From: Sphaerisporangium rufum
Lineage (GTDB): Bacteria > Actinomycetota > Actinomycetes > Streptosporangiales > Streptosporangiaceae
Assembly (NCBI RefSeq): GCF_016863395.1
Contig: NZ_BOOU01000085.1
Coordinates: 1-64,000, forward strand
Direction: 5' to 3'
DNA: 64,000 bases
The translations under genes were made by a program, and so were the position numbers. The notes under the pieces were generated by a model. The model saw only the letters and a list, made by a program, of their open reading frames with translations, made no database searches and was not told the origin of the DNA. This document shows positions 7,154-62,678 of the stretch, piece by piece; the first letter of the stretch is position 1, and every line of letters begins with the position of its first letter.

Positions 7154-7196
7154 ACCTTCCGCACCGGCTCTCGAATCCGCCTAGAGCCCGGCTGTA
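7154..7196 (-). promoter_or_regulatory. SARP-type repeat promoter for the 7110-4837 operon
   Basis: Read on the minus strand, three heptamers are spaced 11 bp apart: TACAGCC (7196-7190), TCTAGGC (7185-7179) and TCGAGAG (7174-7168). Exactly 8 bp later comes a -10-like GAAGGT (7159-7154). The spacing matches known SARP (DnrI/ActII-ORF4) sites. The predicted leader is about 37 nt. The two outer heptamers are degenerate. Confidence 0.6.
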
Positions 7197-7223
7197 GCCG
7201 GGGTCCGGCGGCCCCATGCGCTC

Positions 7224-7255
7224 TCGAGGGGGGTTCGAGCCGGGCGGGCGAGCAT
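7224..7255 (+). promoter_or_regulatory. SARP-type repeat promoter for the 7299 gene
   Basis: TCGAGGG (7224) and TCGAGCC (7235) are 11 bp apart. The second is followed after 8 bp by the -10-like GAGCAT (7250-7255), 44 bp before the GTG start at 7299. Confidence 0.72.
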
Positions 7256-7298
7256 GGGCGGGCAAGCGGGCACCGAGCCGAGGAAGGAGGCGGGCTAC

Positions 7299-7754
7299 GT
7301 GCTGGCACAGGTTGCGGGCGTCGCCGTCCTGGTGGGTGGTGGGATCGTCGCCGGGGTCTTCGTCGCGGTGGCGGTGAGCGTGCTGCCGACGCTCATCGCG
7401 CTGCCGGCCGACCGGTACGTCGAGACGCACCGGATGCTGGGCAAGGGCTACCACCCGCTGATGCCGCTACTGGTCAACGCGACGATGCTGATCGACATCG
7501 CGCTGGCGGCGCTGGTACGCGGGCCGTCCGCGCCGTACTTCGCCGCGGCGGCCGTGCTGCTGCTCGGCACCCAGTTCGTCTCGCATCTGTGCAACGTGCC
7601 GATCAACCGGGCGTTGCACCGGATCGACGTCGCCGCCATCCCGGCCGACTGGCCCGACCCGCGCCCGGCGTGGCGCGGCTGGCACCTGCTGCGCACCGCG
7701 CTGGCGCTGGCCGGGCTGGTCGCGGCGGGTGCGGGCGCGGTGCTGCTCCCGTAG
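7299..7754 (+). CDS. DUF1772 / anthrone-oxygenase-family membrane protein (copy B)
   Basis: This 151-residue paralogue of copy A has the same four-helix layout and the same NVPINRAL element. GTG 7299 was chosen because AGGAAGGAGG lies 8 nt upstream; an in-frame ATG at 7254 lacks a site and sits in the promoter. It is followed after 51 bp by the SchA/CurD gene, probably one transcript. Two divergent copies suggest either two oxidation steps or a heteromeric membrane oxidase; that is inference. Confidence 0.8.
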   Translation: MLAQVAGVAVLVGGGIVAGVFVAVAVSVLPTLIALPADRYVETHRMLGKGYHPLMPLLVNATMLIDIALAALVRGPSAPYFAAAAVLLLGTQFVSHLCNVPINRALHRIDVAAIPADWPDPRPAWRGWHLLRTALALAGLVAAGAGAVLLP

Positions 7755-7805
7755 TGGGGCCACGGGTCTCCCAGGCCATCGTCAACCGACAGAAAGAGGA
7801 CCGTC

Positions 7806-8561
7806 ATGCCGTTCGCCGCCATCACCTACCGGGTCAAGCCCGGGCATGAGGAGCAGATCGCCGAGATCTTCTCGCCGGCCAACTTCAAGCGCGCCCAGGC
7901 GCCGGCGCCGGGCGAGGGGCAGGGCGCGCCCGCCGCGCGCATCCTGGGCACCGGGCTGTTCATCCAGGACGACATCATGGTGCGGGCCATCCAGTACGAG
8001 GGCGAGCTGGACGCGGTGGCCCGGCACATGGCCACCCAGCGCGGCGTGCGGGAGGCCGAGGAGCGGATCGCGCCGTACCTGGCCGAGGAGCGGGACACCT
8101 CCACCGTGGAGGGCTTCCTGTCGTACTTCCGCAGGAGCACCATGCTGTGCGTGCAGCAGCGGACGATCGCCGACGTGCCGGGCGCCCAGCTGGCCGCGCT
8201 GCGTTACAAGGTTAAGCCGGGGCACGCCGACGACATCGCCAAGGTGTTCAGCGAGGTGCAGGCCGAGGCGCGGCCGGCGCTGCGCGACCAGTCCGGCCAG
8301 GAGGTGGGGCTGATCGTGGCGGTCGCGCTGTTCGTCAAGGACGACTCGATGATCCGGGTGGTGCAGTACGACGGCGAACTCGCCGACGTGGCCCGCTACA
8401 TGGCCGCCCGGGGCGGGCGCCCGGACATGGAGCGCAAGCTCGCGCCGTACATGGCCGAGGAGCGGCACGTGGCGACCAAGGAGGACTTCCTGCGGCAGTT
8501 CGAGAAGAACACCATGCGCCGCATCTCGATGCTGTCGGCCGGCCGCCAGCCGGTGGGCTGA
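7806..8561 (+). CDS. SchA/CurD-domain protein, two domains in tandem
   Basis: The 251-residue protein contains two copies of the same roughly 105-residue domain, beginning FAAITYRVKPGHEEQIAEIF and LAALRYKVKPGHADDIAKVF. Each ends with a PY(L/M)AEER segment. The SchA/CurD family is found in type II PKS clusters for spore pigments and pentangular polyphenols, where members act in oxygenation or cyclization; the exact reaction here is not deducible. ATG 7806 has an AGAGGA site. It follows DUF1772 copy B. Confidence 0.85.
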   Translation: MPFAAITYRVKPGHEEQIAEIFSPANFKRAQAPAPGEGQGAPAARILGTGLFIQDDIMVRAIQYEGELDAVARHMATQRGVREAEERIAPYLAEERDTSTVEGFLSYFRRSTMLCVQQRTIADVPGAQLAALRYKVKPGHADDIAKVFSEVQAEARPALRDQSGQEVGLIVAVALFVKDDSMIRVVQYDGELADVARYMAARGGRPDMERKLAPYMAEERHVATKEDFLRQFEKNTMRRISMLSAGRQPVG

Positions 8562-8671: not shown

Positions 8672-9631
8672 TCAGAAGAAGACGGGGGAGCGGGGGCCGA
8701 CCGGGTGGCGGAAGGTCCACCACAGCCAGGCCTGCGCGAGCAGCATCACCGGGAGCACCGGCAGGGCCATCCCGGCGAACAGCGACAGCGAGGCGGCGTC
8801 GGCGGCGCCGTGCAGGACGGCCGGCGCGGCGCCGGCCAGCGCGGCGAGGACCGGGGCGACCGCGCCGGCGGCGGTCAGCGCGAACGCGCGGCCGGGCCGC
8901 GCGGTGACGGCCCGGCCGGCCCCCACGACCGCGGCCAGGCCCGCCACCAGGAACGCCAGCGCGGGCAGCCAGGAGACCGCGCCGCGCACGTCGCCCGAGA
9001 ACGCGCCGGCGACCACCGCCAGCGCGACCGCACCGAGTGCGGGGCGCACCAGGGCGGCGGCGATCCGCCGTGCCTGGTCGCCGGGCGCCTGGGGCACCCG
9101 GACGGCGACGAAGGCGGCGCCGTGCAGCGCGAACAGCAGCACCGTCGCGACGCCGCACAGCAGCGTGAAGGGGTTGAACAGGTCGAAGAACCCGCTGCCG
9201 GCGGCGGCGCCGGGCAGGCCTTGCGTGATGTTGCCGAGCAGCAGGCCGAAGGCGAACGCGAAGCACGCGCACGCGACGGCCAGCACGCGCTCCCAGGTGG
9301 TGCGCCAGCGGTCGGAGTCGCGGCGGCTGCGGAACCAGGTGGCCGCGTCCTTGGCGATCCACCCGGCCAGCATGATGATCACGATCGGCCGGCAGCCGCT
9401 GAGCAGGCGGCTCTCGAACTCGGGAAAGGCACCGGTCATCACGCCGGCGGCGGCGATCAACCACACCTCGTTGGTCAGGAAGAACGGGCCCATGCCGGTG
9501 AGCACCAGCCGGCGGCCCGCGGCGTCATCGGCGAGCCTGGGCAGCAGCATGCCGAGCCCGATGACGAACCCGTCGAGCAGCGCCCAGCCGCCGAGCATCA
9601 GGATGAGAACGGTGAGCCACACGACGTCCAT
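8672..9631 (-). CDS. cydB: Cytochrome bd quinol oxidase subunit II
   Basis: This 319-residue protein has about eight or nine membrane segments. It begins WLTVLILMLGGWALLDGF, the CydB N-terminal helix with its GFxxG element, and contains a GPFFLTNEVWL motif. With CydA it forms the two-subunit quinol:O2 oxidoreductase, a bc1/aa3-independent terminal oxidase. It follows cydA by 92 bp. No cydDC heme/thiol exporter genes are adjacent. It is unusual to find it between PKS tailoring genes and sugar genes. Confidence 0.9.
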   Translation of the reverse strand: MDVVWLTVLILMLGGWALLDGFVIGLGMLLPRLADDAAGRRLVLTGMGPFFLTNEVWLIAAAGVMTGAFPEFESRLLSGCRPIVIIMLAGWIAKDAATWFRSRRDSDRWRTTWERVLAVACACFAFAFGLLLGNITQGLPGAAAGSGFFDLFNPFTLLCGVATVLLFALHGAAFVAVRVPQAPGDQARRIAAALVRPALGAVALAVVAGAFSGDVRGAVSWLPALAFLVAGLAAVVGAGRAVTARPGRAFALTAAGAVAPVLAALAGAAPAVLHGAADAASLSLFAGMALPVLPVMLLAQAWLWWTFRHPVGPRSPVFF

Positions 9632-9723
9632 CTGCGCTTCTCCTCAAAGTGCTGCGAAGGGCTTCGGATCCGCCCGGAATCGCCGGGAGGGAAGGGAACC
9701 GAGGGACACGGCCGGCCGGCGGT

Positions 9724-10986
9724 TCAGAAGGCCGGCGTGACCGCCTCGTCGCTGCGGTCGCGTTTCTCGGTGTCGGCCAGGGTGCGGCCGAGCACCGAGC
9801 CGTCCGGGCCGCGCCGGGCGTACCTGGCGATCAGGAACCAGTCGGTGCCGACGGCGACCACGTACAGCAGGGTGAACAGCACCAGCGACGCCAGCACCGG
9901 GCCGAAGGAGAGCGGGGCGACCGCGTCCTCGGTCTTCAGCCGGCCGTACACCGCCCAGGGCTGCCGGCCGACCTCGCGCACCAGCCAGCCGGCGACGACC
10001 GCGGTGAACGGGATCGGGATCAGCCAGGTGAGCAGGCGCAGCACCAGCTTGCGGCGCTCGATGAACTTCCCGATCAGCATCAGCACGAAGATCAGGCCGA
10101 CGTACTGGTAGATCTCGCCCACCGTCAGCATCCAGTCGAAGAACCCCTTGATCCATGCGGGGGCGGTGCCGGCGGACACGTCGCCGGGCGGCAGGCCGAG
10201 CTCCTGGACCTTGCCGGGGTTGATCACGGCGATCTTGCCTGGCTGGGTCCGGGCCACCAGGTCGACCTGCTGGAAGCCCATGATGCTGGTGGTCCAGGAC
10301 GCGAAGAAGGCCACCAGCAGGCCGAGCCGCAGCGCGCGGCCGTGCACGTCGCGGTCGCCGGTGCCCCGGCGCAGGTGCCAGGCGCTCACCCCGGCGATGA
10401 GGTAGCCGCCGATCAGCAGGGCCGCGGCGATGACGTGCTTGAGCGCGGCCAGCGCGTTGGGGTTGGTCAGCAGCGCGGACAGGTCGGCCAGCCGGGCGGC
10501 GCCGTTCTCCACCACGTCGCCGACCGGGTGCTGCATGTAACCGTTGGCGACGATGATCCAGAACGCGGAGACGTAGGCGGTGATCGTCACCAGGTAGAAG
10601 AGCAGCAGGTGGACGAACTTGGGCAGCCGGCCCCAGCCGAAGATCCACATGCCGAGGAAGGTCGAGTCGAGGAAGAACGCCACCAGCGTCTCCATGGCGA
10701 GCGGCGCGCCGAAGATGTTGCCGGTGTAGGCGGTGAGCCCGGTCCAGTTCATCCCGAACTGGAACTCCAGTAACAGCCCGGTGATGATGCCGACCGCGTA
10801 GTTGATGACGTAGATCTGCCCCCAGAACTTCGTCATGCGCTCGTGCACCGGCTTGCCGGTGATCGCGTAACGGGTCTGCATGAACGCGACGAAGGGGGCG
10901 AGACCCAGCGTGACGATCACGAACAGGAAATGGAAGCTGGTCGTCACGGCGAACTGCAGCCGCGCCAGGTCGAGCACCTCCACCAT
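9724..10986 (-). CDS. cydA: Cytochrome bd quinol oxidase subunit I
   Basis: The 420-residue protein starts with the canonical DLARLQFAVTTSFHFLF, where His19 is the expected high-spin heme ligand. It carries the GRQPWAVYG motif of CydA and a short Q-loop. ATG 10986 fits the family N-terminus; an in-frame ATG upstream at 11025 would span the promoter. It is divergent from the POT exporter gene. A TCTATATGTAGA palindrome sits 22 bp before the start, like sites upstream of a multicopper oxidase and padR. Inference: the oxidase supports respiration when the product or a quinone intermediate stresses the electron chain. Confidence 0.92.
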   Translation of the reverse strand: MVEVLDLARLQFAVTTSFHFLFVIVTLGLAPFVAFMQTRYAITGKPVHERMTKFWGQIYVINYAVGIITGLLLEFQFGMNWTGLTAYTGNIFGAPLAMETLVAFFLDSTFLGMWIFGWGRLPKFVHLLLFYLVTITAYVSAFWIIVANGYMQHPVGDVVENGAARLADLSALLTNPNALAALKHVIAAALLIGGYLIAGVSAWHLRRGTGDRDVHGRALRLGLLVAFFASWTTSIMGFQQVDLVARTQPGKIAVINPGKVQELGLPPGDVSAGTAPAWIKGFFDWMLTVGEIYQYVGLIFVLMLIGKFIERRKLVLRLLTWLIPIPFTAVVAGWLVREVGRQPWAVYGRLKTEDAVAPLSFGPVLASLVLFTLLYVVAVGTDWFLIARYARRGPDGSVLGRTLADTEKRDRSDEAVTPAF

Positions 10987-11019: not shown

Positions 11020-11069
11020 ACCCAAACCTATCCTACTCGCGGGCGGCTGGAACAGCGGTCCAGGTGTCC

Positions 11070-11098
11070 TCGACCCCGCTTTGAGACCGCTTCGAGAT
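11070..11098 (+). promoter_or_regulatory. SARP-type repeats upstream of the POT exporter/rmlA operon
   Basis: Three heptamers, TCGACCC (11070), TTGAGAC (11081) and TCGAGAT (11092), are spaced 11 bp apart, 60 bp before the start. The 8-bp-distant hexamer is GGACGC, so the -10 rule is not met here. Confidence 0.65.
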
Positions 11099-11158
11099 GG
11101 TCGGACGGACGCGGCGCCCGGTTCCGGGGCCGCTCCGCACGTTCGCCCGGAGGGTCCG

Positions 11159-14679: not shown

Positions 14680-16305
14680 CTAGACCAGGGACGGGGCGGT
14701 GCCGGCCAGTACCCGGTCCAGCGCCGCCGCCAGCTCGGCCCGGGGGTCGGCGCTCGCCGCGGTCGCGCGCCAGGCGACGATCCCGTCCGGGCGGACCAGC
14801 AGGGCGCCGGCCGTCCCGGTGCCGGAGACCGCCGGCCACCGGCCCATCGGGTCGGCGAGCACGTCGCGGTGGCTGGTCGCCTCCTCCAGCGCGGGCACCA
14901 CCCGGTAGGCGTCCAGCGGGAGATCCCGCTCGGCGGCCAGCGCGGCGGCGGCGCGCGCCCAGCCGGCGCCACCGGCCGCGGCCAGCAGCACGAAGCCGCG
15001 GCCGAGCAGGTCGAGCAGGTCCACCCGGGCGCCCGGCCGGACCAGCGACAGGTGCGGGACCCGCACCCCGGGGGCCCCCTTGCCGGCCGGCGCGCCGGTG
15101 CCCTCGGGGACGACGGCGGCCGATTCGTAGCGGTAGGTGAACATCAGCTCGGCGTCCGACCGGATGGCCGGTGCCGCCTCCTCGCCGTTCCCCCTGGTCA
15201 TCCGGGAGCGGTCCCGCGAGCGCAGCACCACCTGCCGGGCGGTCTCGGCCGCGACCGGCCGCCGCTCGGCGTCGTAGGTGTCCAGCAGGGCCGGCGCGGC
15301 CCGGCCGCGCAGCACCAGCGCCAGCTTCCAGGCCAGGTTGTGCGCGTCCTGGATGCCGGTGTTGGAGCCGAAGGCGCCGGTCGGCGGCATCACGTGCGCG
15401 GCGTCGCCGGCCAGCAGGACGCGGCCGGCCCGGAAGGCGTCGGCCACCGCCGCCGCCATCGGCCACGGCGCCGCCTGCTCGATGGTCACCGCCAGGTCCG
15501 GGACGCCGGTGCCGGTGCGCACCAGCTCGCGGCACTCCTCCTCGCTCATCGCGGCCGCGCGCGCCGGGTCGCACTCCACGTGCATCAGCCAGCGGTCGGC
15601 ATTGTTGACCGGCAGCAGCGCGGCCCGCATGGGCAGCGCGCGCAGGTAGCAGATGACGAAGCGGCGGTCGCCCAGCACCTCGCGCAGGTCGGCGGTGAAG
15701 GAGATGTTCAGGAAGTCGCTGATGGTGCCGGGCCCGGTGAGCGGGATGCCGAGCTCCTCGCGGACCCGGCCGCGGGCCCCGTCCGCGGCCACCAGGTAGC
15801 CGGCCCGGATGGTGCGCGTCGCGCCGGTGGCGACGTCGCGGACCGTCGCGGTGACGCCGTCGCCGCCCGAGGTGAAGCCGGTCAGCTCGGTGCCGAACCG
15901 CAGGTCGGCGCCGAGCTCGCGGGCGCGGGCGGCGATGGCCGGCTCGGCCTCGTCCTGGTGGCACAGGCACCAGGCGACCGGGGTGTGCTCGGAGAAGTCG
16001 GTGTCGGTGTCCATGAAGTACGCCTGGTCCAGCCGGGTGTGCTCGCCGGCCAGGGTGTGCGCCATGACGACCCCGGAGTTCCCGGCCAGCGCGCGGGCGG
16101 ACTCGGCGGCCCGCAGCCGCCCCTCCACGCCGGCCTGCCGGAACAGCTCCATGGTGCGGGGATTTATACCGCGCGCCCGGGGGTGCGCGGAAAGCCCCTG
16201 GTGCCGTTCGACCAGCACGCAGTCGACGCCCTGGTGGGCGAGGAAAAGAGCCTGGGAAAGGCCGACCAGGCTGCCGCCGACGATCAGCACAGACGTGGAT
16301 TCCAT
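14680..16305 (-). CDS. FAD-dependent aromatic hydroxylase (TcmG/PgaE type), no. 1
   Basis: The 541-residue group A flavoprotein monooxygenase has a Rossmann motif (VLIVGGSLVGLSQALFLA), HPRARGINPRTMELFR near residue 45 and a DG motif (VAADGARGRVRE). It also has LLAGDAAHVMPPTGAFGSNTGIQDAHNLAWKLA split over the FAD site, and a thioredoxin-like C-terminal domain. These are hallmarks of polyketide hydroxylases such as TcmG. It is probably a tailoring hydroxylase on a polycyclic aromatic intermediate. ATG 16305 follows a GGGAGGT site. It is divergent from the P450 gene. Confidence 0.9.
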   Translation of the reverse strand: MESTSVLIVGGSLVGLSQALFLAHQGVDCVLVERHQGLSAHPRARGINPRTMELFRQAGVEGRLRAAESARALAGNSGVVMAHTLAGEHTRLDQAYFMDTDTDFSEHTPVAWCLCHQDEAEPAIAARARELGADLRFGTELTGFTSGGDGVTATVRDVATGATRTIRAGYLVAADGARGRVREELGIPLTGPGTISDFLNISFTADLREVLGDRRFVICYLRALPMRAALLPVNNADRWLMHVECDPARAAAMSEEECRELVRTGTGVPDLAVTIEQAAPWPMAAAVADAFRAGRVLLAGDAAHVMPPTGAFGSNTGIQDAHNLAWKLALVLRGRAAPALLDTYDAERRPVAAETARQVVLRSRDRSRMTRGNGEEAAPAIRSDAELMFTYRYESAAVVPEGTGAPAGKGAPGVRVPHLSLVRPGARVDLLDLLGRGFVLLAAAGGAGWARAAAALAAERDLPLDAYRVVPALEEATSHRDVLADPMGRWPAVSGTGTAGALLVRPDGIVAWRATAASADPRAELAAALDRVLAGTAPSLV

Positions 16306-16390: not shown

Positions 16391-16433
16391 TCCAGAGCTT
16401 TTCGAGCCGTCTTCCAGCAGCCGTTGCGATGAT
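16391..16433 (+). promoter_or_regulatory. SARP-type repeat promoter for the P450 gene
   Basis: TCCAGAG (16391), TCGAGCC (16402) and TCCAGCA (16413) are spaced 11 bp apart. After 8 bp comes the -10-like GATGAT (16428-16433), 34 bp before the GTG start at 16468. Confidence 0.72.
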
Positions 16434-17692: not shown

Positions 17693-19288
17693 TCAGTTGC
17701 GGCACAGCAGGCGGGTCACGGCCTGGTCCAGCGCGGCCACCGGGTCGGCCGGGCGGTGCCGGGCCCGCCAGCCGACGAAGCCGTCCGGCCGGACCAGCAC
17801 CGCACCGTCCCGCGCGATGCCGTGCGCCTCGTGGCCGCCCGGCACCTCGATGTCGATCCCGATCCGGTAGGCGTCCACCGGCAGCCCGAACCCGCCGGTC
17901 ACCTTGGGCACCGCGTCCACCCACGCCGAGGTCGCGCCGCCGGACAGCAGCACCAGGCCGCGCCCGTACAGGTCGAGCAGGGACATGTCCCGCCCGGCCA
18001 GCCGGGCCGGCAGGTGCGGCGCCCGGCCACCCGGCCGCCCGTCCAGCTCGGCCGGCGGCACGAACCGGGTGGGCTCGCCGCCGATCACCGCGCCGGAGCC
18101 GTAGGTGTAGCCGAGGATCACCGACTCCGACGGCCACAGCGTCTCGGCCGCGTCGGCGTCGGCCAGGCCCATGTTGACCTCGCGCTTGAGCACCGCCTGG
18201 GCGATCGTCTTGGCGGCCACCGGGCGGCGCTCGGCCTCGTAGCTGGACAGCAGGGCGGGGCCGGCGTGGCCGTGCAGCACCGCGGCGAGCTTCCAGGCCA
18301 GGTTGTGCGCGTCCTGGATGCCGGTGCCCGATCCGTAGGCCCCCGACGGCGGCATGGAGTGCGCGGAGTCGCCGACCAGGAAGGCGCGGCCGACCCGGTA
18401 GGTGCCGGCCAGCAGCGCGTCGATGTCGTAGGCGAGCACCGTGGTGCCGTCGGCGAGCTGCGGGACGATGCGCACGTCGAGGTCGGGCAGCCCGACCGCC
18501 TTGCGGATCAGGTCGACCGACAGGTCCTCGGTGAAGGTCTCCGGCGACTCGCCGCGAGCCGGGTCGTAGGGGAAGCTCACCACCCAGCGCTCCTCGGAGT
18601 CGTGCGGCATCAGCACGGTCCCGAGGATCGGCTCGCGCAGGTGGCACAGCCCGACCGAGCGGCCGCGCAGCGCCTCCGAAAGATCGGCCTCGAAGACCAG
18701 CGTCACCGTGTGGCCGAGCCGGCCGGCCCCGGCGCGCGGGACGCAGAGCCGCTCGCGGATCGGGCTCGGGCCGCCGTCCGCGGCGATCAGGTAGTCGGCG
18801 CGCACGACGTCGTCCCGTCCGGACCGCAGGTCGCGCAGGGTGCCGGTCACGCCGCCCCGGTCGAGGTCGAAGCCGTCGAGCCGGGTGGAGAAGCGGATGT
18901 CGGCGCCGAGCTCCTCGGCGCGGCGCCGCAGGATGGTCTCCAGCACGTCCTGGTCGATCGGCACCCAGGGGCAGGGGCTCGCGTCCCGCGCGTCCTCCTG
19001 CATCTCCATCGGCCGGGACCGCTCCTCGGGCCCGGACAGGGTGCCCGCGTGCAGGATGATCTTGCCGTCGAAGGGCCGGCGGGCGGCCAGGATCTCCTCC
19101 TCCAGGCCCGCCTGCCGGTAGAGCTCCAGCGTGCGTGAGTTGATGGTGCGCGCTCGCGGGTGGATCAGCGTGCCGGAGTGCCGCTCGACCAGCAGGACCG
19201 GAACGTCCTGCCGGGCCAGGAAGACCGCGGAGCTGAGCCCGGCGAGCCCGCCACCCACGATCAGTACGGCCGTGCGGTGGTGATACAT
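17693..19288 (-). CDS. FAD-dependent aromatic hydroxylase (TcmG/PgaE type), no. 2
   Basis: The 531-residue paralogue of hydroxylase no. 1 has VLIVGGGLAGLSSAVFLA, HPRARTINSRTLELYR, the DG motif AADGGPSPIRERL and FLVGDSAHSMPPSGAYGSG. It also has the C-terminal thioredoxin-like domain. Two such enzymes imply two ring hydroxylations or a sequential oxidation. ATG 19288 has an AGAAGGG site. It lies directly downstream of the SARP gene but has its own SARP-type promoter in the 129-bp gap. Confidence 0.9.
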   Translation of the reverse strand: MYHHRTAVLIVGGGLAGLSSAVFLARQDVPVLLVERHSGTLIHPRARTINSRTLELYRQAGLEEEILAARRPFDGKIILHAGTLSGPEERSRPMEMQEDARDASPCPWVPIDQDVLETILRRRAEELGADIRFSTRLDGFDLDRGGVTGTLRDLRSGRDDVVRADYLIAADGGPSPIRERLCVPRAGAGRLGHTVTLVFEADLSEALRGRSVGLCHLREPILGTVLMPHDSEERWVVSFPYDPARGESPETFTEDLSVDLIRKAVGLPDLDVRIVPQLADGTTVLAYDIDALLAGTYRVGRAFLVGDSAHSMPPSGAYGSGTGIQDAHNLAWKLAAVLHGHAGPALLSSYEAERRPVAAKTIAQAVLKREVNMGLADADAAETLWPSESVILGYTYGSGAVIGGEPTRFVPPAELDGRPGGRAPHLPARLAGRDMSLLDLYGRGLVLLSGGATSAWVDAVPKVTGGFGLPVDAYRIGIDIEVPGGHEAHGIARDGAVLVRPDGFVGWRARHRPADPVAALDQAVTRLLCRN

Positions 19289-19330: not shown

Positions 19331-19362
19331 ATCGTCCCGCGGACCGCTCGAAGCGCTCTCGA
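19331..19362 (-). promoter_or_regulatory. SARP-type repeat promoter for FAD hydroxylase no. 2
   Basis: On the minus strand TCGAGAG (19362-19356) and TCGAGCG (19351-19345) are 11 bp apart. After 8 bp comes the -10-like GACGAT (19336-19331), 42 bp before ATG 19288. Confidence 0.75.
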
Positions 19363-19417
19363 ATCGGAGTGGGCACGCCACCCGGCCGCCGGCGGCCCGG
19401 TGGCCGCCTGGTGACCG

Positions 19418-21262
19418 CTAGATGGCGCAGTGCTCGCGTTCCTCCTCCGCCCCGTACAGGCGGATCAGCTCGGGGATGGCACAGGACAGGTCGCCGCGCG
19501 GGGCGCTCGCCGAGATGGTCATCAGCCGCATGTCGATCAGGTGGGACAGGATGTCCTCGGCGGAACTGATGCTCACGTTGAGCAGGTCGGCGGTGCTGCG
19601 GGTGGAGAAGACCCGCTGCCGGGAGGAGCCGAGCACGGTGAACGCCTGGCGCATCTCCGGGTCGAGCTGCCGGAAGCTGCAGGCCAGCCGGGTGCGGACG
19701 TCGAGGTCGCCCCACCGTAACTCGGTGAGCCGCGAGCTCTCGTCGGTCAGCTTGGACCGGTAGCGCTCCAGGGTCCAGTGCGGCGCGGCGGCCAGCCGCT
19801 CCCCGGCGATCCGCAGGCCGAGCGGCAGCGCGCCGCACATCTCCACGATCGAGCGGGCCGCGTTCTCCTCCGCCGTCACCCGGTCGCCACCGATGATCTT
19901 GCGCAGCAGTTCCAGCCCGGAATCCACGTCGAAGGCGCCCAGCTCGATGTGGTCGGCGCTGGTCAGCCCGTAGAGCGGCGAGCGGCTGGTGACGATGACG
20001 GCGCTGTTCGGCCCGGTGGGGAACAGCGGCCGCACCTGGGCGCCGGAGCAGGCGTCGTCCAGCACGACCAGCAGGCTGCGGTCGGCGCTCCAGGTGCGGA
20101 ACAGGTTCCGGCGCGCCTCGATCCCCTTCGGGATCTGCTCGTCGCGCAGGCCGCCCGCCCGCAGCATCGCGCCGAGGGCGTCCTCGCTGTCGCGGGGCTC
20201 GGCGGACATGCCGCGCAGGTTGACGTACAGCTGGCCGTCGGCGAACCGGCTGCGTACCCGGTGGCCGACGTGCGTGGCCAGCGCCGTCTTGCCCACCCCG
20301 GCCATGCCGGTTAGGGAGACGATCGGCAGCGCGCTGGCGTTGCCGGTGCCGTCCAGCGAGACCTCGATCCGGCCGCGCACGTCGCTGCGGTCGGTGAAGT
20401 CGACGATGTCCGGCGGCAGCTCGGCCGGCGGCGCCGGCGGGGCGGCCCGTACCTGAGCGGTGCCCCGCGCCCCCTCCGGGCGCCGGGCGGGCAGCTCCAG
20501 CGACGGGTCGCCGCGCAGGATCGCCTGCTGCAGCCGCTGCACGGGCTGCGACGGCTCCAGGCCGAGCTCCTCGTTGAGCATCGCGCGCAGCCGCTGGTAG
20601 ACGGCGAGCGATTCGCTGCGCCGCTCGGAGCGGTAGAGCGCGAGCATGAGTCGCGAGTAGAACCCCTCGCAGATCGGGTAGTTGGCGGTGAGCTCCTTCA
20701 GCTCGCTGATCTGCTCGCGGTGCCGGCCGAGGCGCAGCGCCGCGTCCATCCGCATCTCCAGCGCGTTGAGGTGGCTCTCCTCCAGCTTGGTGGCGTGCGC
20801 GTCCAGCAGCCGGCCGCGCGGCACATCGGTGAGCGCGCTGCCGCGCCACAGCGTGAGCGCGTGTCCGAGCGTCTCGGACGCCTGCTCCAGCTCGCCGGCC
20901 TGCAGGGATTCGCGTCCCTGCTTGACGAGCCGCTCGAAGTGGTGGATGTCGATGGCCTCCGGCGGCACCTGTGCCTCGTAGCCGGCGGCCTTGGTGACGA
21001 GGAACTCCTCGCCCGGGTGCCCCGCAGCGGTCATCATGCGGCGCAGTTGGTAGATGTACGTCTGCAGTGTCGTCGCCGCGCTGATGGGGGGAGAGTCCCC
21101 CCACAGCTCGTCGATCAGTGCGTCCGCCCTGGTGATCCGGTTGTAATTGATCAACAGCAAGGACAGTACCGTGCGGAGTTTCGGTGCTGAGGGCGTTAAA
21201 TCCTGCTCGCCGATACGCACCTCGAATGTTCCTAGAACCTTGAAAAGCATGACGGTCCCCAT
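19418..21262 (-). CDS. AfsR-like SARP transcriptional activator with NB-ARC ATPase domain
   Basis: The 614-residue protein has an OmpR-type winged helix (about 20-100: PKLRTVLSLLLINYNRITRA), a bacterial transcriptional activation (BTAD) domain (about 105-250), a linker and an NB-ARC domain. The ATPase shows Walker A GMAGVGKT at 319-326, Walker B LLVVLDDAC and a GALPLGL motif. It lacks AfsR's C-terminal TPR array. It is the only SARP in the window and the probable owner of the tandem TCGAGNN repeats. Two TTA leucine codons are present (Leu22 at 21197-21199 and Leu515 at 19718-19720), so translation probably depends on the bldA tRNA. An alternative start is ATG 21250. Confidence 0.92.
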   Translation of the reverse strand: MGTVMLFKVLGTFEVRIGEQDLTPSAPKLRTVLSLLLINYNRITRADALIDELWGDSPPISAATTLQTYIYQLRRMMTAAGHPGEEFLVTKAAGYEAQVPPEAIDIHHFERLVKQGRESLQAGELEQASETLGHALTLWRGSALTDVPRGRLLDAHATKLEESHLNALEMRMDAALRLGRHREQISELKELTANYPICEGFYSRLMLALYRSERRSESLAVYQRLRAMLNEELGLEPSQPVQRLQQAILRGDPSLELPARRPEGARGTAQVRAAPPAPPAELPPDIVDFTDRSDVRGRIEVSLDGTGNASALPIVSLTGMAGVGKTALATHVGHRVRSRFADGQLYVNLRGMSAEPRDSEDALGAMLRAGGLRDEQIPKGIEARRNLFRTWSADRSLLVVLDDACSGAQVRPLFPTGPNSAVIVTSRSPLYGLTSADHIELGAFDVDSGLELLRKIIGGDRVTAEENAARSIVEMCGALPLGLRIAGERLAAAPHWTLERYRSKLTDESSRLTELRWGDLDVRTRLACSFRQLDPEMRQAFTVLGSSRQRVFSTRSTADLLNVSISSAEDILSHLIDMRLMTISASAPRGDLSCAIPELIRLYGAEEEREHCAI

Positions 21263-21284: not shown

Positions 21285-21355
21285 TATGCAGTACGGCATA
21301 ACCACCTAGAAAGGCAATTACCACATTAAGCCACTGACGGGTAGAACGTCTACCC
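21285..21355 (-). promoter_or_regulatory. Two inverted repeats in the SARP gene promoter region
   Basis: TATGC-N6-GCATA (21285-21300) lies 23 bp upstream of the SARP start. A perfect GGGTAGA-N3-TCTACCC (21339-21355) lies 77 bp upstream. They are candidate operators for control of the activator; the second could instead be a small terminator of the long PKS operon. No SARP-type tandem repeat is present, so autoactivation is not suggested. The rest of the 184-bp gap (21263-21446) shows nothing else. Confidence 0.45.
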
Positions 21356-41753: not shown

Positions 41754-41782
41754 TGTTCACCTTTCCGAGGGATTGCTACGTC

Positions 41783-44770: not shown

Positions 44771-45408
44771 CGATCTGCGAGGACTCCACGCTGTTCCGCG
44801 AGGGCCTGGCCCGGCTGCTGGCGGAGTCGGGGTTCGCGGTGGCGGCGTGCGTCGACAACGCCGCAGACCTGCTCGCGCACGTGGCGCAGGACCCGCCCGA
44901 GGTGGCCGTGCTGGACATCCGCCTGCCGCCCACCCACACCGACGAAGGGCTGCGGGCCGCGGTCACGCTGCGGGAACGGCATCCGGAGGTGGGCGTGCTG
45001 GTGCTGTCGCACCACGTCCGGGTGAGCTACGCGGTCGAACTGCTCGGCGGCCGCACCGACGGCGTCGGCTACCTGCTCAAGGACCGGGTGTCGGACCTGG
45101 CGGAGTTCGCCGCGGCCATCCGCCGGGTCGGGTCGGGCGGGTCGGTGCTGGACCCGGTCGTCGTCGAGCGGCTCGTCGGCCGCCACCGGCAGCCCGGCGA
45201 CCCACTGGGACGGCTCACCGAGCGCGAGCGCGCCGTGCTGCGGCTGATGGCCGAGGGCCGCACGAACATGGCGATCGCCGAACGGCTGGTCATCGCCGAG
45301 CGCACCGTGGAGAAGCACTGCACGAGCATCTTCGTCAAGCTCGGCCTGGAGGCGAGCGCGCACGACCACCGGCGGGTGCTCGCGGTGCTGCGGTACCTGA
45401 ACGCCTGA
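44761..45408 (+). CDS. LuxR/NarL-family response regulator
   Basis: The 215-residue protein has a receiver domain with acidic pocket (AICEDS), phosphoacceptor Asp in AVLDIRLP and a Lys in LLKDRV. The C-terminal LuxR HTH is LTERERAVLRLMAEGRTNMAI ending TVEKHCTSIFVKLGL. GTG 44761 overlaps the kinase stop, indicating coupling. Targets may include the operon starting at 45688. Confidence 0.9.
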   Translation: MRVAICEDSTLFREGLARLLAESGFAVAACVDNAADLLAHVAQDPPEVAVLDIRLPPTHTDEGLRAAVTLRERHPEVGVLVLSHHVRVSYAVELLGGRTDGVGYLLKDRVSDLAEFAAAIRRVGSGGSVLDPVVVERLVGRHRQPGDPLGRLTERERAVLRLMAEGRTNMAIAERLVIAERTVEKHCTSIFVKLGLEASAHDHRRVLAVLRYLNA

Positions 45409-45687
45409 GGGCGGGTCCGCCGGCCCCCGTCCTCGTCGGCGCGTCGGGTGCTCCGGCGGCCCGGCCGGGTGCGCGGCGGCCGCGCGGCGGCGCCGGGGGG
45501 GCGGATGCGCGGCGGCCCGATGGTACGGATAACCGCACCCGGATGAGGAGGCCAGCCGGGTTCCCGGTCCGGCGGCCGTCGTCGAGGATCAAGGCGACGG
45601 GGAGTCGCCGTGACGCGGCGACCGGTTGCCGCCCGGTCACCGGGCCGGGAACGGCCGCCGGGACCGGGCCGAGGAAGGGACACGCTG

Positions 45688-46848: not shown

Positions 46849-48302
46849 TCAGGCCGCTCCGGCTGATCCGCCTGGCCGTCCTTGCGATGGTGGCGGCCCT
46901 GCTGATCGCCCCGCCCGCCGCGGCGCACGACGTCCGGGCGGGGGCCGACCTGCGGATCGCGCAGACGATCGCGGGCGCGGAGCTGACCCTCGTGATCAAG
47001 GCGACGACCCGGGTGCCGGGGCCGCTGCGCGTCGAGGTGATCGGTTTCCCCGCCGCCCCCGCCCTTGACCTGCGGCTCCGGTCGATGACCGGCGGTGGGG
47101 TCACCCGCGGCACGGCGGCCCCCGGCCGGCCCGCGCGGTTGCGGGCCGAGGAGACCGGGCCGCACGAGCTGTCCGTCACCGCCGGGGGCGAGACCACGGT
47201 GATCCCGTTCCGGGTCCTGGTGGACCGCGGCTCGGGGTGGGAGTTCCTGATCTACGGCGGCCTGTTCACCGCCGGCCTGCTCCTGGTGGGCGGCCTGCTC
47301 ACCGGGGCGTTCGGCCGGCGCGGCCGGTCGGCGTTCGTGGTGACCGCGGTCGCCGCCGCGGGGCTCACGGTCGCCGCGCTGATCGTGGTGCTCGACCCCT
47401 GGCTGCCCGCCGGACCGCCGGACGGCGCCGAACCGCGTCCCACGGACGCGCCGGCCGGCCGGCCGTACGTCCAACGGGTGATCACCACCGTGCCGGCCCG
47501 GCCGGCCCCGGGCGAGGAGTTCGTGGCGCGGGTGGAGCTGTTCGACGGGTCCACCGGGCGGCCCGTCGACGATCTCGCCGTGCACCACGAGGCCATGGCC
47601 CACCTGGTGGTCACCGCCGAAGACGGCCGCTACTTCCGCCACGTCCACCCGCTGCGGACCGCGCCGGGCCGCCTTGAGGTACGGCTGCGCGCCGGACCTC
47701 CCGGTCGCTACCTCACCTACGTCGAGCTCGAACGCACCGACTCCGGCGGCCAGCTCCTCACCGGCGCCTTCACGGTCGGCGGGCGGGACGCCGCGGACCC
47801 GGGAGACGGCGCGGACGGTGCCGGCGCGGACGTGGCCGACGCGGACGTGGCCGGTGATGCGGGTGCCGGCGGTACCGGTACAGACGCAGGGAACGGTACG
47901 GCCTCGGGCACGGGTACGGGCTCCGGAAACGGCGCACGCTCCGGAAAGGGCGCGGGCTCGGGGAGCGGCGCGGGTGCCACGGCGCCGGGTGACCCGGAGG
48001 TTCCGGCGGCCCCGGCCGGGACGGTGACGGTGACGCCGGCCGTGCCCCGGGCGGGGCGGCCGGCCACCGTCGAGGTGGCCACCGCCGGGACACCGCTGCC
48101 GTGGCTCGGGATGGCGGGCCACCTCATCGTGCGGTCGGCGGACGGCGGGTTCCTCGGCCACGTCCACGAGATGGGGACGCCCGGCGCCCGGCTGCGCTTC
48201 ACCTTCGGCTTCCCCGTGCCGGGCCGCTACCTCGCCTGGGCGCAGTACGCCACCGGCCGCGGCATCACCACCGTGCCCTTCACCGTGGAGGTACCCCGTT
48301 GA
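46845..48302 (+). CDS. Exported membrane-anchored protein with two His/Met (YtkA-like) domains
   Basis: The 485-residue protein has a signal peptide ending AAAHD, a first extracytoplasmic domain, a membrane hairpin (about 130-195), then two related domains. These read HHEAMAHLVVTAEDGRYFRHVHP and GMAGHLIVRSADGGFLGHVHEM, separated by an 80-residue Gly/Ala/Ser/Asp low-complexity linker. The repeated MAxHLxV-(D)G-xxHVH pattern suggests copper binding. It lies between a His-containing membrane protein and a YtkA-like protein, so metal delivery or redox sensing is inferred. Confidence 0.7.
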   Translation: MIRPLRLIRLAVLAMVAALLIAPPAAAHDVRAGADLRIAQTIAGAELTLVIKATTRVPGPLRVEVIGFPAAPALDLRLRSMTGGGVTRGTAAPGRPARLRAEETGPHELSVTAGGETTVIPFRVLVDRGSGWEFLIYGGLFTAGLLLVGGLLTGAFGRRGRSAFVVTAVAAAGLTVAALIVVLDPWLPAGPPDGAEPRPTDAPAGRPYVQRVITTVPARPAPGEEFVARVELFDGSTGRPVDDLAVHHEAMAHLVVTAEDGRYFRHVHPLRTAPGRLEVRLRAGPPGRYLTYVELERTDSGGQLLTGAFTVGGRDAADPGDGADGAGADVADADVAGDAGAGGTGTDAGNGTASGTGTGSGNGARSGKGAGSGSGAGATAPGDPEVPAAPAGTVTVTPAVPRAGRPATVEVATAGTPLPWLGMAGHLIVRSADGGFLGHVHEMGTPGARLRFTFGFPVPGRYLAWAQYATGRGITTVPFTVEVPR

Positions 48303-48679
48303 CCCGCGCGAAGCGCCTGCTGGTCCTGGCGTTCGCCGCGCTGGTGGCGGCCGCGGTGGCCGCGTTCGCCGTCGCCCGCGCCTCGGGCGCCGACCCGGTG
48401 ACCGCCGCGGGCACCCGCTACACCGTCACCGTCACCGCCGCCCGGGACACGATCGACGTACGAGTGGACCGGGGCGCGGCCGACACCGTAACCATCGCCG
48501 CCGTGATGCCCGCCATGGGTCACGCGATGCCCGAGGTCACCGCCCGGAAGGCGGCCCCCGGCCACTTCGTCGCCGAGGGCGGCCTGTTCTCCATGGACGG
48601 GGGGTGGGAGCTGTCGGTGCGCCTCACCGGCCCGGCCGGCGAGGAGACCCTCACCCTCACCACGCTCGTCGGCGACTAG
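48299..48679 (+). CDS. YtkA/FixH-like exported domain protein
   Basis: The 126-residue protein has one N-terminal helix (KRLLVLAFAALVAAAVAAFA) and a beta-rich domain with VMPAMGHAMPEV and a GLFSMDGGWELSVRL segment, as in YtkA-like proteins. The HAM/GHAM His-Met cluster could bind copper. The start is probably TTG 48299, overlapping the previous stop (TTGA). It is the third gene of the 45688-48679 operon. Confidence 0.7.
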   Translation: MTRAKRLLVLAFAALVAAAVAAFAVARASGADPVTAAGTRYTVTVTAARDTIDVRVDRGAADTVTIAAVMPAMGHAMPEVTARKAAPGHFVAEGGLFSMDGGWELSVRLTGPAGEETLTLTTLVGD

Positions 48680-48687
48680 CGCCCGGT

Positions 48688-48729
48688 CCGCCTTGCCCGG
48701 CCGGGCGGGTGACCGGGCCGGGCAGGCGG
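48688..48729. terminator. GC-rich hairpin after the YtkA-like gene
   Basis: CCGCCTTGCCCGGCC pairs with GGCCGGGCAGGCGG (one bulged base) between convergent genes. Confidence 0.6.
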
Positions 48730-48774
48730 TGCCCCGGTGCCTCGTCCCGCGGCCGGGCGGGTGGTGCCGGAGAC

Positions 48775-48844
48775 GGGCGCGGCGGCGAGCGCCGGATCGT
48801 CCAGGCCGGGATGGCGGGCCGGGGGGCGCGGCGGCGAGCGCCGG
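48775..48844. repeat. Direct repeat in the convergent gap
   Basis: A 21-bp sequence (48775-48795) recurs exactly at 48824-48844, in a 205-bp gap with no gene. It is probably remnant or low-complexity DNA. Confidence 0.6.
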
Positions 48845-48884
48845 GCCGTCCGGGGGCAGGGCGGCGAGGGACGCCAGGCCCGGG

Positions 48885-50788: not shown

Positions 50789-50831
50789 ACGATCGCAGCG
50801 CGGGCTCGAGCGGCGCTCGTCCGGCGCTCGA
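50789..50831 (-). promoter_or_regulatory. SARP-type repeat promoter for the A-PCP gene
   Basis: On the minus strand TCGAGCG (50831-50825), ACGAGCG (50820-50814) and TCGAGCC (50809-50803) are spaced 11 bp apart. After 8 bp comes the -10-like GATCGT (50794-50789), 44 bp before ATG 50744. Confidence 0.77.
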
Positions 50832-50848
50832 CGGCGCCGGCCGGCCGT

Positions 50849-50880
50849 TCGAGCCGGCTTCGAGCAGGCGTTGTCACCCT
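50849..50880 (+). promoter_or_regulatory. SARP-type promoter of the aminotransferase gene, predicted leaderless
   Basis: TCGAGCC (50849) and TCGAGCA (50860) are 11 bp apart. After 8 bp comes CACCCT (50875-50880), then 6 nt, then ATG 50887. No Shine-Dalgarno sequence is present. Confidence 0.7.
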
Positions 50881-57195: not shown

Positions 57196-57238
57196 AGAAT
57201 CGCCGGGCGGGCTTTACCTCTGCTCGAAGACCGCTCGA
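57196..57238 (-). promoter_or_regulatory. SARP-type promoter of the 57189-52052 operon, predicted leaderless
   Basis: On the minus strand TCGAGCG (57238-57232), TCGAGCA (57227-57221) and degenerate TAAAGCC (57216-57210) are spaced 11 bp apart. After 8 bp comes GATTCT (57201-57196), then 6 nt, then ATG 57189. Confidence 0.65.
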
Positions 57239-59602: not shown

Positions 59603-59643
59603 CGTCTCCCCCTCGTCGTCACGTTCTCGATCGTGAGCAAAAC

Positions 59644-59655
59644 TCTACATGTAGA
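59644..59655. promoter_or_regulatory. Candidate PadR operator between divergent genes
   Basis: TCTACATGTAGA is a perfect 12-bp palindrome 42 bp upstream of the multicopper oxidase and 100 bp upstream of the permease-prefix gene. A related half, TCTACTTATACA, follows at 59659. Confidence 0.6.
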
Positions 59656-59754
59656 CACTCTACTTATACATCTTAGGGTCGAGTAAACCTTGAGTAGGGG
59701 CTAAAGTAAGGGTCTGCACCCTTTCTGTCGGGCGGCCTGCCGAGGAGGCGGCAC

Positions 59755-60705: not shown

Positions 60706-60758
60706 CGATCCGCTGTCTTCCGCGGCTTTCTCGTTCTCCCTCTTCGAGGGTAGGCCTG

Positions 60759-60780
60759 CTACGTGTAGGCTGTCTACATG
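60759..60780. promoter_or_regulatory. Candidate PadR autoregulatory operator
   Basis: CTACGTGTAG (60759-60768) and a TCTACATG half (60773-60780) overlap the padR start codon, placing a bound repressor over the translation start. Confidence 0.55.
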
Positions 60781-61041
60781 CCAGGGACCTACTTCCTCGA
60801 CCACCACGACCGCGAGGTGCTCGCGGTCCTGGAGCGTGGGCCCCTGTACGGCTACCTCATCATGGAGGCGCTCCGGCTGCGCGCGGGCGAGGAACTCGAT
60901 CTGCCGACCGGAGGCCTCTACCCCATACTTCGCCGGCTGGAGCGCCTGGGTTACGTACGCAGCGCCTGGGTCGCCCTCGACGGCCGGCATCGCCGGACCT
61001 ACGAGCTGACCGAGATGGGACGCCAGGCGCACGTCCGGTAG
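60778..61041 (+). CDS. PadR-family transcriptional regulator, short type
   Basis: The 87-residue protein is a PadR winged helix without the long C-terminal dimer domain: VLAVLERGPLYGYLIMEAL, LPTGGLYPILRRLERLGYV and YELTEMGRQ. PadR proteins repress genes for phenolic stress or drug efflux and release on binding aromatic ligands. CTACATGTAG-like sites at its own start and upstream of the oxidases at 10986 and 59602 suggest a small regulon. No ribosome site precedes ATG 60778. Confidence 0.9.
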   Translation: MPGTYFLDHHDREVLAVLERGPLYGYLIMEALRLRAGEELDLPTGGLYPILRRLERLGYVRSAWVALDGRHRRTYELTEMGRQAHVR

Positions 61042-61054
61042 CCGGCCGGGAGGC

Positions 61055-62548
61055 TCAGGTGGTGATCTCCATCTGGGCCATCATCGCCATGGAGGAGTGC
61101 TCCAGCAGGTGGCAGTGGTACACGTACCGGCCGGTGTAGTCGTCGAACCGCACCTTGAACGTCACGGTCGACCCCGACGGCACGGTGACGGTGTCCTTCA
61201 GCCCCGCCTCGTGCCCGGTCACCGGGACGCCGTCCCGGTCCACGATCTGGAAGTGGGCCAGGTGCAGGTGCATGTTGTGCGGGATGGCCGGCCGCAGGTC
61301 ATCGTTGCGGACCCGCCACAGCTCGGTCACCCCCAGCTTCACGTGCTGGTCGATCCGCGCCGGGTCGAACGTCTTGCCGTCCAGCAGGAACGTGCCGGTG
61401 GCCAGGTCCATCTTGAAGGCCAGGTCCCGGGTGACCGTCGGCGTGCCGATGTCGGGCAGCGGGCGCAGCACGTCGGGCACCACGCTCTCGTCGTCGTCGG
61501 CGTCCCCCGCCACGTCGAAGCGCAGCACCTCACGGGTGCCCTGGTCGCCGCCGCGGTCGTTGACCAGCATGACCTGGGTACCGGTCGCGTACCGGGTGAA
61601 GTCGATCACGACCTCCACCCGCTCGCCCGGCCACACCGGCACCCGGGTCGCCGGCACCGGGGCCGGCAGCAGGCCGCCGTCCGAGGCGATCTGCACCATC
61701 TCGCCGGTCCCGTCCGCGCCGAGCAGGAAGGCCAGGTCGCGGTCCAGGCAGGTGTTCAGCAACCGGAAGCGGTACTTGCGCCGCTTGACGCGGAAGTACG
61801 GCTGCACCCGGCCGTTCACCAGGATGGTGGTGCGCGCCCGGAAGCCGCCCATCGCGTACACCAGCTGTCCCTGCTCGTCGAACTGCGCGTCCCGGAACAT
61901 CAGCGGCACGTCATGCGCGCCGCTCGGCAGCTCCAGCCGGTCCTCGTAGTCGTCCTTGATCATGTAGAAGCCGGCCAGGCCGCGGTAGACGTGCTCGGCC
62001 TCCTTGTGGTGCGCGTGGTCGTGGTACCAGAGCGTCGCGCCCGGCTGGCGGTTCGGGTAGTCGTAGGTGCGGACGGCCCCCGGGTCGAAGGTGTCGGTGG
62101 GGAAGCCGTCGCTCGCCGCCGGCACGTGCCCGCCGTGCAGGTGGACGGCCACCGGCTCGCCGGTCGCGTTGGTGTGCTCGACCACGACCCGCCGCCCGGA
62201 CCGCACCTTGATGGTGGGGCCGGTGAACAGGCCGTTGTAGGTGAGAACGTCGGTCTTCAGGCCAGGGAAGATGTCCGCCTGGGCGGGCTTGATGGCCATC
62301 CGGTACACGTCGGTGTCGGTGGTGGACCGCACCGGGCTCAGCACCGGCGGGATGGTCAGCGCCCGGGAGAACGGCGTCACCGCCGGCGCCACCGTCGCCG
62401 ACACCAGCGCCGGGGCACCCCGGTGGCCGTGCTTGCCGGCCAGGTCCAGCACCCGGCCCTCCGGCGGCGACAGCGCCGCGCGCACCGGCAGCGCGGCGGC
62501 CATCCCGCCGAGCACGCCGAGCTTCATCATGTTCCTTCTACCGATCAT
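61055..62548 (-). CDS. Exported multicopper oxidase, no. 2
   Basis: The 497-residue enzyme has a Tat-like start (GRRNMMKLGVLGGMAAAL) and complete copper motifs: HLHGGH, WYHDHAHH, NMHLHLAHFQ and HCHLLEHSSMAMM. It differs clearly from no. 1 and has a shorter signal without Cys. ATG 62548 has GGAG 8 nt upstream. It may act in oxidative coupling or quinone formation. It shares a divergent SARP-type promoter with the methyltransferase at 62716. Confidence 0.92.
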   Translation of the reverse strand: MIGRRNMMKLGVLGGMAAALPVRAALSPPEGRVLDLAGKHGHRGAPALVSATVAPAVTPFSRALTIPPVLSPVRSTTDTDVYRMAIKPAQADIFPGLKTDVLTYNGLFTGPTIKVRSGRRVVVEHTNATGEPVAVHLHGGHVPAASDGFPTDTFDPGAVRTYDYPNRQPGATLWYHDHAHHKEAEHVYRGLAGFYMIKDDYEDRLELPSGAHDVPLMFRDAQFDEQGQLVYAMGGFRARTTILVNGRVQPYFRVKRRKYRFRLLNTCLDRDLAFLLGADGTGEMVQIASDGGLLPAPVPATRVPVWPGERVEVVIDFTRYATGTQVMLVNDRGGDQGTREVLRFDVAGDADDDESVVPDVLRPLPDIGTPTVTRDLAFKMDLATGTFLLDGKTFDPARIDQHVKLGVTELWRVRNDDLRPAIPHNMHLHLAHFQIVDRDGVPVTGHEAGLKDTVTVPSGSTVTFKVRFDDYTGRYVYHCHLLEHSSMAMMAQMEITT

Positions 62549-62632
62549 GTCGAACTCCGTCCTGCCGGTCACCGGGCGCCACATGATCGGCTCGCCGGCT
62601 GGAGTCCCGGTCCAGAACCGCTCGCGGCCCCG

Positions 62633-62678
62633 GTCTCCATCCGCCCTCGACCGCCGGTCGAGTCCCCGCTGTCAGCGT
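62633..62678. promoter_or_regulatory. SARP-type repeats in the divergent gap of oxidase no. 2 and a methyltransferase
   Basis: On the plus strand TCGACCG (62647) and TCGAGTC (62658) are 11 bp apart. After 8 bp comes CAGCGT (62673-62678), serving 62716. Because TCGA is palindromic the same sites read on the minus strand as TCGACCG, TCGAGGG and TGGAGAC at 11-bp spacing toward oxidase no. 2; no good -10 is seen there. Confidence 0.65.

Follow-up and report, generated by a model that had tools for sequence, protein, structure and literature searches.

According to excerpts of the published work, the sites of Streptomyces antibiotic regulatory proteins (SARPs) are repeats spaced by 11 or 22 bp that end 8 bp ahead of the -10 element (PMC10936776), a distance that is also given for AfsR, FdmR1, and Aur1PR4 (PMC7040171). 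Triplets of repeats are known for DnrI, ActII-ORF4, VlmI, and FdmR1 and doublets for other SARPs (PMC10972967), and a triplet is required for activation of pimM by PimR (PMC5930380). The chromomycin cluster is under a SARP activator and a PadR repressor (PMC5992853). Here we analyze a 64,000-bp stretch of Sphaerisporangium rufum DNA (the window, positions 1 to 64,000 of contig C85, NZ_BOOU01000085.1). A reading made from the sequence alone had described TCGAG-like heptamers at 11-bp spacing at twelve places in this window, in ten of them followed 8 bp later by an NANNNT hexamer, and had ascribed them to a SARP regulon; its statement that this geometry is an established one agrees with PMC10936776 and PMC7040171. 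We conclude that these elements are very probably SARP-dependent promoters of a glycosylated type II polyketide cluster, read by the medium SARP of the cluster on three repeats.

The genome comprises 7.80 Mb in 173 contigs, of which C85 (73,854 bp) makes up 0.95%. When it was searched with the pattern TCGAG-N6-TCGAG-N10-SANNNT, allowing one mismatch, 15 matches were found, compared with 2 for the reversed pattern used as a control. Eleven of the 15 lie on C85, nine in the window and two past its end, for which a binomial with uniform placement gives P ~7e-20; the other four are on contigs C59, C36, C81, and C96. A threshold of two mismatches was rejected as too loose, since its 119 matches against 86 for the control are mostly noise. 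Same-strand TCGAG pairs in C85 peak at a spacing of 11 bp (six pairs, with three at the next spacing), and the background contains 0.2 such pairs per 74 kb. With one mismatch allowed, NANNNT stands at a gap of 8 bp in 11 of 24 C85 pairs, and no other gap between 0 and 24 bp accounts for more than four, compared with 4 of 80 background pairs at gap 8 and at most five at other gaps. All ten hexamers and 8-bp gaps named earlier could be read back exactly from the sequence. Eleven of the twelve listed places stand, that of the POT exporter (11070) in a corrected register; the twelfth, 62633 on the minus strand, is a palindromic shadow.

We compared the cluster with those of Sphaerisporangium corydalis (G019), found by a KSa search with a 94% match, and of a congener (G022). 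The cluster SARP is 85% identical in both, compared with at most 47% among the matches listed for the other 57 genomes of the SARP search, and the three species share one collinear gene order between 4837 and 70352, save for one block (34655-48884). Sets of orthologous sites were built from matches with up to two mismatches at corresponding places, one relative's site J being added by position, which gave 15 sets with 44 sites (set I lacks G022). Four of these sets belong to C85 sites past the window (65977-, 66063+, 69962-, and 70027+), two of them with two mismatches. The 8-bp gap is present in 43 of the 44 sites, in sets that had been picked with a pattern containing that gap; the single exception is the relative's J, with 9 bp. 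With a 43-bp matrix trained on the two relatives only, the 15 sites of S. rufum itself score 20.7-41.3. In a background of 1,502,587 bases from 77 loci (19% of the S. rufum genome), 14 positions score 10 or more, and two of these, C96:6926 and C59:19987, lie above 14.5; both are on loci that had been taken in because they contained pattern matches. When each set was left out in turn, its S. rufum site was equalled or beaten by 0-2 of 1,122,654 background positions (the first 30 of the 77 loci, these two included). These data demonstrate that the 11-bp/8-bp grammar is real and far beyond chance.

Analysis of the sequence upstream of the two repeats showed a third repeat, mostly degenerate and marked by a kept A, in 14 of the 15 promoter sets. 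This A falls at position -8, where a further repeat one helical turn upstream has its fourth base; identity across species is 81% in columns -11 to -7, and nothing similar was found one more turn upstream in the 15 sets. The third repeat lay outside the pattern that chose the sets, and when D, H, and J, in which three heptamers had already been seen, are set aside, the A is present in 11 of 12. The earlier description of two or three heptamers thus understated their number. Six other clusters (G014:C6, G015:C55, G016:C91, Micromonospora marina, Streptomyces musisoli, and [Actinomadura] parvosata), picked for several matches on one contig, were used as an independent test. Among their 32 core matches with at most one mismatch, chosen with the upstream sequence ignored, 20 have A at -8, and no other upstream column exceeds eight (binomial P ~5e-12 with the local A frequency). 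A part of these matches probably does not mark promoters. No statement of a hidden third repeat in doublets was met in the parts of the SARP-site literature at hand, where no search was aimed at that claim.

The presumed activator contains Trans_reg_C, BTAD, and NB-ARC domains, each above its Pfam cut-off, and aligns to AfsR over almost its full length (E ~1e-101). Of the AfsR contact residues named in PMC10936776, those corresponding to W74, P79, T88, and R94 are kept here, and the alignment shows K95 changed to R75, Q48 to K28, R87 to Q67, and R92 to Q72. The recognition helix of the cluster SARP, TTLQTYIYQLRR, fits the pattern [ST]T[LMA]QTY[IV], as do 7 of 7 SARPs from five of the six other TCGAG clusters; no SARP was found in the A. 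parvosata stretch. This pattern, which is exploratory because it was written after inspecting the SARPs, occurs in none of the 19 other SARP loci extracted from the S. rufum genome, of 24 BTAD matches. One relative's SARP (L152) has the helix pattern, yet no site in its 4.9-kb locus. Enrichment, conservation, and the SARP domains together support a SARP-type regulon with the 11-bp/8-bp geometry, and family knowledge and conservation suggest that the cluster SARP binds these sites. We propose that this protein would bind three direct repeats, one per helical turn, presumably as three protomers. The two promoter-proximal repeats are near TCGAG, the upstream one is mostly worn to about NCNA, and the last lies 8 bp ahead of a weak putative -10 element (GANNNT). 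The bound SARP would then act as an activator by recruiting RNA polymerase in the absence of a good -35 element.

Several observations weigh against this interpretation. The sets were chosen by the pattern, and the conservation of heptamers and hexamers is therefore partly ascertained: across the 14 sets with three species, identity is 94% for the TCGAG columns and 93% for the A and T of the -10 hexamer, compared with 44% for the 10 bp that separate the final TCGAG from the hexamer and 29-33% for the flanks, and the spacer columns between the two heptamers themselves reach 77%. The 9-bp gap of the relative's J is one of 44, and the cytochrome bd operon would need 9 bp too; site I is the one set without the third-repeat A. 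Control is not universal, since multicopper oxidase 1, the FAD monooxygenase gene 14680-16290, the SARP gene, and the two PadR genes are without an acceptable site in this strain. The eight congeners without the cluster still hold 6-17 matches each (controls 2-8), several of which adjoin other SARPs. There are 23 other BTAD matches in the S. rufum genome, and since the pattern also extends beyond the cluster, another SARP could contribute.

The possibility that chance repeats in GC-rich DNA were singled out by eye draws on TCGA being self-complementary and common, on one of the twelve listed places (62633 minus) being just such an artefact, and on 3 of 12 other genomes in which the pattern does not exceed its control. 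It is nonetheless already refuted for the site set as a whole, and its probability is negligible: 11 of 15 near-perfect matches fall on 0.95% of the genome where the reversed control gives 2 in all, two lie past the window in which the grammar had been noticed, and the sites are kept in three species. It is also very improbable that the repeats are a box for an OmpR/PhoP-type or other winged-helix response regulator. PhoP shares with AfsR a box of two direct repeats (PMC10972967), and a two-component pair lies in the window, but the response regulator considered, that of the window, is LuxR-type (GerE), its block is absent from the relatives' clusters, which still keep the sites, and TCGAG is unlike the AfsR/PhoP repeat CGTT(T/C)ATCGNN given in the same excerpted source.

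A less remote, though unlikely, explanation is that the same promoters are SARP operators read mainly by a different SARP encoded in the genome, with the cluster SARP as a modulator. The further BTAD matches, the perfect site on C59, which has two SARP genes no more than 8 kb away and another ~13.5 kb off, and the use of other SARPs by other TCGAG-array clusters are consistent with it. Against this, both relatives carry the cluster SARP, 85% identical, together with the cluster, and its helix TTLQTYIYQLRR, which the C59 SARP helices do not resemble, is unlike those of all 19 extracted loci and resembles those of SARPs from other TCGAG clusters. Reading of the sites by the cluster SARP itself is the interpretation we prefer. 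This SARP had been called the only candidate regulator, a claim that we cannot uphold: also encoded in the window are a PadR protein (60778-61041) that both relatives share, a HisKA_3 kinase with its LuxR-type response regulator (43145-45408), and a protein with DUF5753 (37553-38254), and BTAD matches in the genome number 24 with the cluster SARP included.

The three cluster-carrying genomes of the genus have 15, 17, and 22 matches to the pattern (controls 2, 5, and 6). Among 12 genomes picked for a related KSa, 11 have matches, and three do not exceed the control (0 versus 4, 4 versus 4, and 10 versus 10). Other SARP clusters share the grammar, and it is therefore not a mark of this cluster; within the genus, eight near-perfect sites occur on G015:C55 and seven on G014:C6. 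With respect to the S. rufum matches outside C85, the one at C81:46107 recurs letter for letter in 9 of 10 other genus genomes and is probably not an operator. At C59:19987 (score 22.5), a perfect site stands ahead of a DoxX gene near the SARP genes mentioned above; it is a possible trans target or a case of cross-talk. The best background match, C96:6926 (score 26.5), is a candidate trans site, and the gene behind it is presumably an FmdB-like zinc-ribbon gene.

Both promoters that had been described as exceptions to the grammar proved to follow it. The POT exporter promoter fits one heptamer earlier, with a -10-like GATGGT kept in three species and a last heptamer that reads ACGAGAC in the relative at 72111; the third heptamer of the earlier reading, TCGAGAT, was rejected as part of a site, as it falls within the gap and the -10 hexamer and the relatives do not share it. 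Multicopper oxidase 2 has its own conserved site, P, in all three clusters. The place formerly listed there, 62633 minus, is the shadow of 62647 plus: its "hexamer" is GACCGG, the relatives have no NANNNT at that position, and site K on the opposite strand together with P accounts for it. When the scan was trained on the other two species each time, P (scores 20.0, 19.6, and 17.2) and a second new site, the candidate Q (16.9, 14.7, and 16.7), were found in all three; the matrix behind both included the third repeat, and they are left out of the evidence for that repeat. In Q, the rare codons TCA (1.7% of Ser) and GTA (1.3% of Val), which carry the A's of the repeats, are kept in all three species while two neighboring residues vary, although coding conservation could contribute. 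The putative -10 elements of B and P overlap annotated ATG codons (for B at 7254), so the true gene starts are probably further downstream.

The FAD monooxygenase gene 14680-16290 has a minus-strand site in both relatives (137548- and 77364-) that this strain lacks. The cytochrome bd genes (8672-10986) lie inside the syntenic cluster in all three species, preceded by a kept block, TGGAYCN-CTGT-TCCAGNC-N9-TANGAT, that scores just 9.9-10.5. A dense conserved block at 59640-59700, between multicopper oxidase 1 and the HAAS-like gene, contains CTCTACATGTAGACACTCTACTTAT and TCGAGTA-AACC-TTGAGTA-GGGGCTAAAGT and does not match the SARP grammar; its repeat at 59679, although conserved, was not counted, the closest TAAAGT being 5 bp off.

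By Pfam, the cluster contains KSa, KSb, ACP, cyclases, KSIII, glycosyltransferases, and deoxysugar genes, together with an A-PCP ligase, a BNR/Asp-box protein, multicopper oxidases, and cytochrome bd, and its product is probably an aromatic, antibiotic-like compound. Membership of the A-PCP ligase and the Asp-box protein, proposed earlier from their sites, is supported by synteny, as each is kept together with its site (H and J, respectively) in three species. The aminotransferase behind site I is present in G022 (84% over 407 residues by translated search). The cluster is split in this strain by the ~14-kb block, for whose histidine kinase and response regulator the G022 stretch has only 34-36% matches elsewhere. 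No site was found in this block (best matrix score 6.2), which is not part of the regulon. Beyond the outermost units on C85, the best scores are 5.0 (left of 4837) and 2.2 (right of 70357). On the right, sites and synteny end together, and 0 of 4 genes called past 70352 match either relative's stretch. On the left, they end together in G022; in S. corydalis, genes 3-341 and FAD-binding 1238-2410 (82 and 85%) are also shared, without a site, and gene 2474-4531 is not shared next to the cluster. The proposal that site and synteny borders coincide on both sides thus fails on the left in S. corydalis.

Positions of the SARP-type sites and associated features in the window, with the corresponding positions in the two relatives.
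Feature	Position	Strand	Sequence	Description	Relatives
Site A	7154-7196	-	TACAGCC-GGGC-TCTAGGC-GGAT-TCGAGAG-N8-GAAGGT	promoter of 7110->4837 (anthrone-oxygenase-like, O-methyltransferase, SDR)	128317-, 68270-
Site B	7213-7255	+	CCCATGC-GCTC-TCGAGGG-GGGT-TCGAGCC-N8-GAGCAT	promoter of 7254-7754 (anthrone-oxygenase-like)	128377+, 68333+
Cytochrome bd operon, candidate variant site	11030-11062	-	TGGACCG-CTGT-TCCAGCC-N9-TAGGAT	9-bp gap	
Site C	11059-11101	+	TCCAGGT-GTCC-TCGACCC-CGCT-TTGAGAC-N8-GATGGT	POT exporter promoter, corrected register	132333+, 72111+
Site D	16391-16433	+		P450 promoter, three heptamers	137576+, 77392+
Site E	19331-19373	-		FAD monooxygenase (17693-19288) promoter	140597-, 80359-
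Medium SARP gene	19418-21262	-		Trans_reg_C + BTAD + NB-ARC, 614 amino acids; presumed activator	
Palindrome	21341-21353		GTAGAACGTCTAC	upstream of SARP gene; candidate PadR-type operator	
Site Q (new, candidate)	31015-31057	-	TGGAGGA-GATC-TCAAGCC-TGCC-TGTAGCC-N8-CAGCAT	within 3' end of glycosyltransferase gene, before cyclase-KSa-KSb-ACP	152238-, 91988-
Site F	33288-33330	-		promoter of KSIII-led operon (33245->21447)	154512-, 94297-
Site G	33381-33423	+		FAD oxidoreductase (33440-34654) promoter	154567+, 94352+
Strain-specific block	34655-48884			Nramp, cupin, DUF5753, HATPase, histidine kinase/response regulator, unknowns	missing there in both
Site H	50789-50831	-		A-PCP ligase promoter, three heptamers	157759-, 97554-
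Site I	50838-50880	+		DegT/DnrJ aminotransferase promoter	157822+, degenerate 97582+ (G022)
Site J	57196-57238	-	TCGAGCG-GTCT-TCGAGCA-GAGG-TAAAGCC-N8-GATTCT	Asp-box protein-led operon	164153- (gap 9), 103926-
Palindrome	59651-59663		GTAGACACTCTAC	between multicopper oxidase 1 and HAAS-like gene; candidate PadR-type operator	
PadR-family regulator	60778-61041	+	GTAGGCTGTCTAC directly before, at 60765-60777	87 amino acids	
Site P (new)	62583-62625	-	GCGAGCG-GTTC-TGGACCG-GGAC-TCCAGCC-N8-GATCAT	multicopper oxidase 2	170015-, 109597-
Site K	62636-62678	+	TCCATCC-GCCC-TCGACCG-CCGG-TCGAGTC-N8-CAGCGT	methyltransferase promoter	170080+, 109662+

The SARP gene is itself without a SARP-type site (best matrix score -5.2), and a conserved palindrome, GTAGANNNTCTAC, stands ahead of it and ahead of the HAAS-like gene (a weak match, E 0.039, below the Pfam cut-off); together, these observations suggest control from above. 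GTAGGNNNTCTAC stands ahead of the PadR gene in the window. A second PadR gene, C85:68609-68929 (106 amino acids), lies past its end, and the PF03551 winged helix is matched by the two proteins with 68.9 and 79.2 bits, respectively (cut-off 27). The second protein is 97% and 99% identical in the relatives, where DNA alignments spanning its gene are 86% (389 bp) and 82% (1.8 kb) alike; these values indicate unusually strong purifying selection on the protein. Exact copies of GTAGANNNTCTAC number 4, 3, and 3 in the three genomes, two of them in the cluster each time, and the reversed control is commoner (9, 11, and 12), so that any evidence lies in the position of the palindrome and not in its count. 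Based on this arrangement, the conserved PadR proteins possibly control the SARP gene as a second tier, with GTAGANNNTCTAC as their putative binding site. More tentatively, and with somewhat less than even confidence, we suggest that TCGAG-type SARP promoters are generally triplets, with the third repeat worn to about one A and three protomers bound in place of a dimer, and that a PadR-SARP cascade operates here.

The sites provide a tested, matrix-ready definition of a SARP regulon outside Streptomyces, one that places puzzling genes in the pathway and leaves out a 14-kb insertion that a distance rule would include. The cytochrome bd could guard against a respiratory effect of the cluster product. 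How many SARP protomers act at a promoter is a question on which the third repeat has a direct bearing, and the PadR layer suggests a way in which silent clusters of this kind could be activated. A PadR-SARP cascade, if true, would stand over a regulon that is readable directly from DNA.

The cluster sites exemplify, with good support, a form of bacterial control that is already known. In the excerpts consulted, FdmR1 (fredericamycin) and Aur1PR4, SARPs of type II polyketide synthase clusters, have, as here, heptameric repeats 8 bp before the -10 element (PMC7040171), and FdmR1 is likewise a medium SARP of ~600 amino acids with three heptamers in its fdmD site (PMC10972967). Unlike those systems, this one offers 17 sites of a single cluster (the 15 sets, P, and Q) kept in three species, and its third repeat is mostly degenerate. 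AfsR of Streptomyces coelicolor (PDB 8HVR, 8JKE, and 8K60) belongs to the same protein family as the cluster SARP and binds afsS as a dimer, on two 11-bp direct repeats with a suboptimal -10 element (PMC10936776); here the repeat sequence differs, the base-contacting R92 of AfsR is Q72, and there are three repeats, not two. PimR at pimM also uses three heptamers, but it is a SARP-LAL with its operator upstream of the -35 element (PMC5930380). The chromomycin regulators SrcmRI and SrcmRII show the same pairing of SARP and PadR in a type II polyketide synthase cluster; the PadR protein there has 186 amino acids (PMC5992853), whereas here two short PadR genes (87 and 106 amino acids) occur with a shared palindrome.

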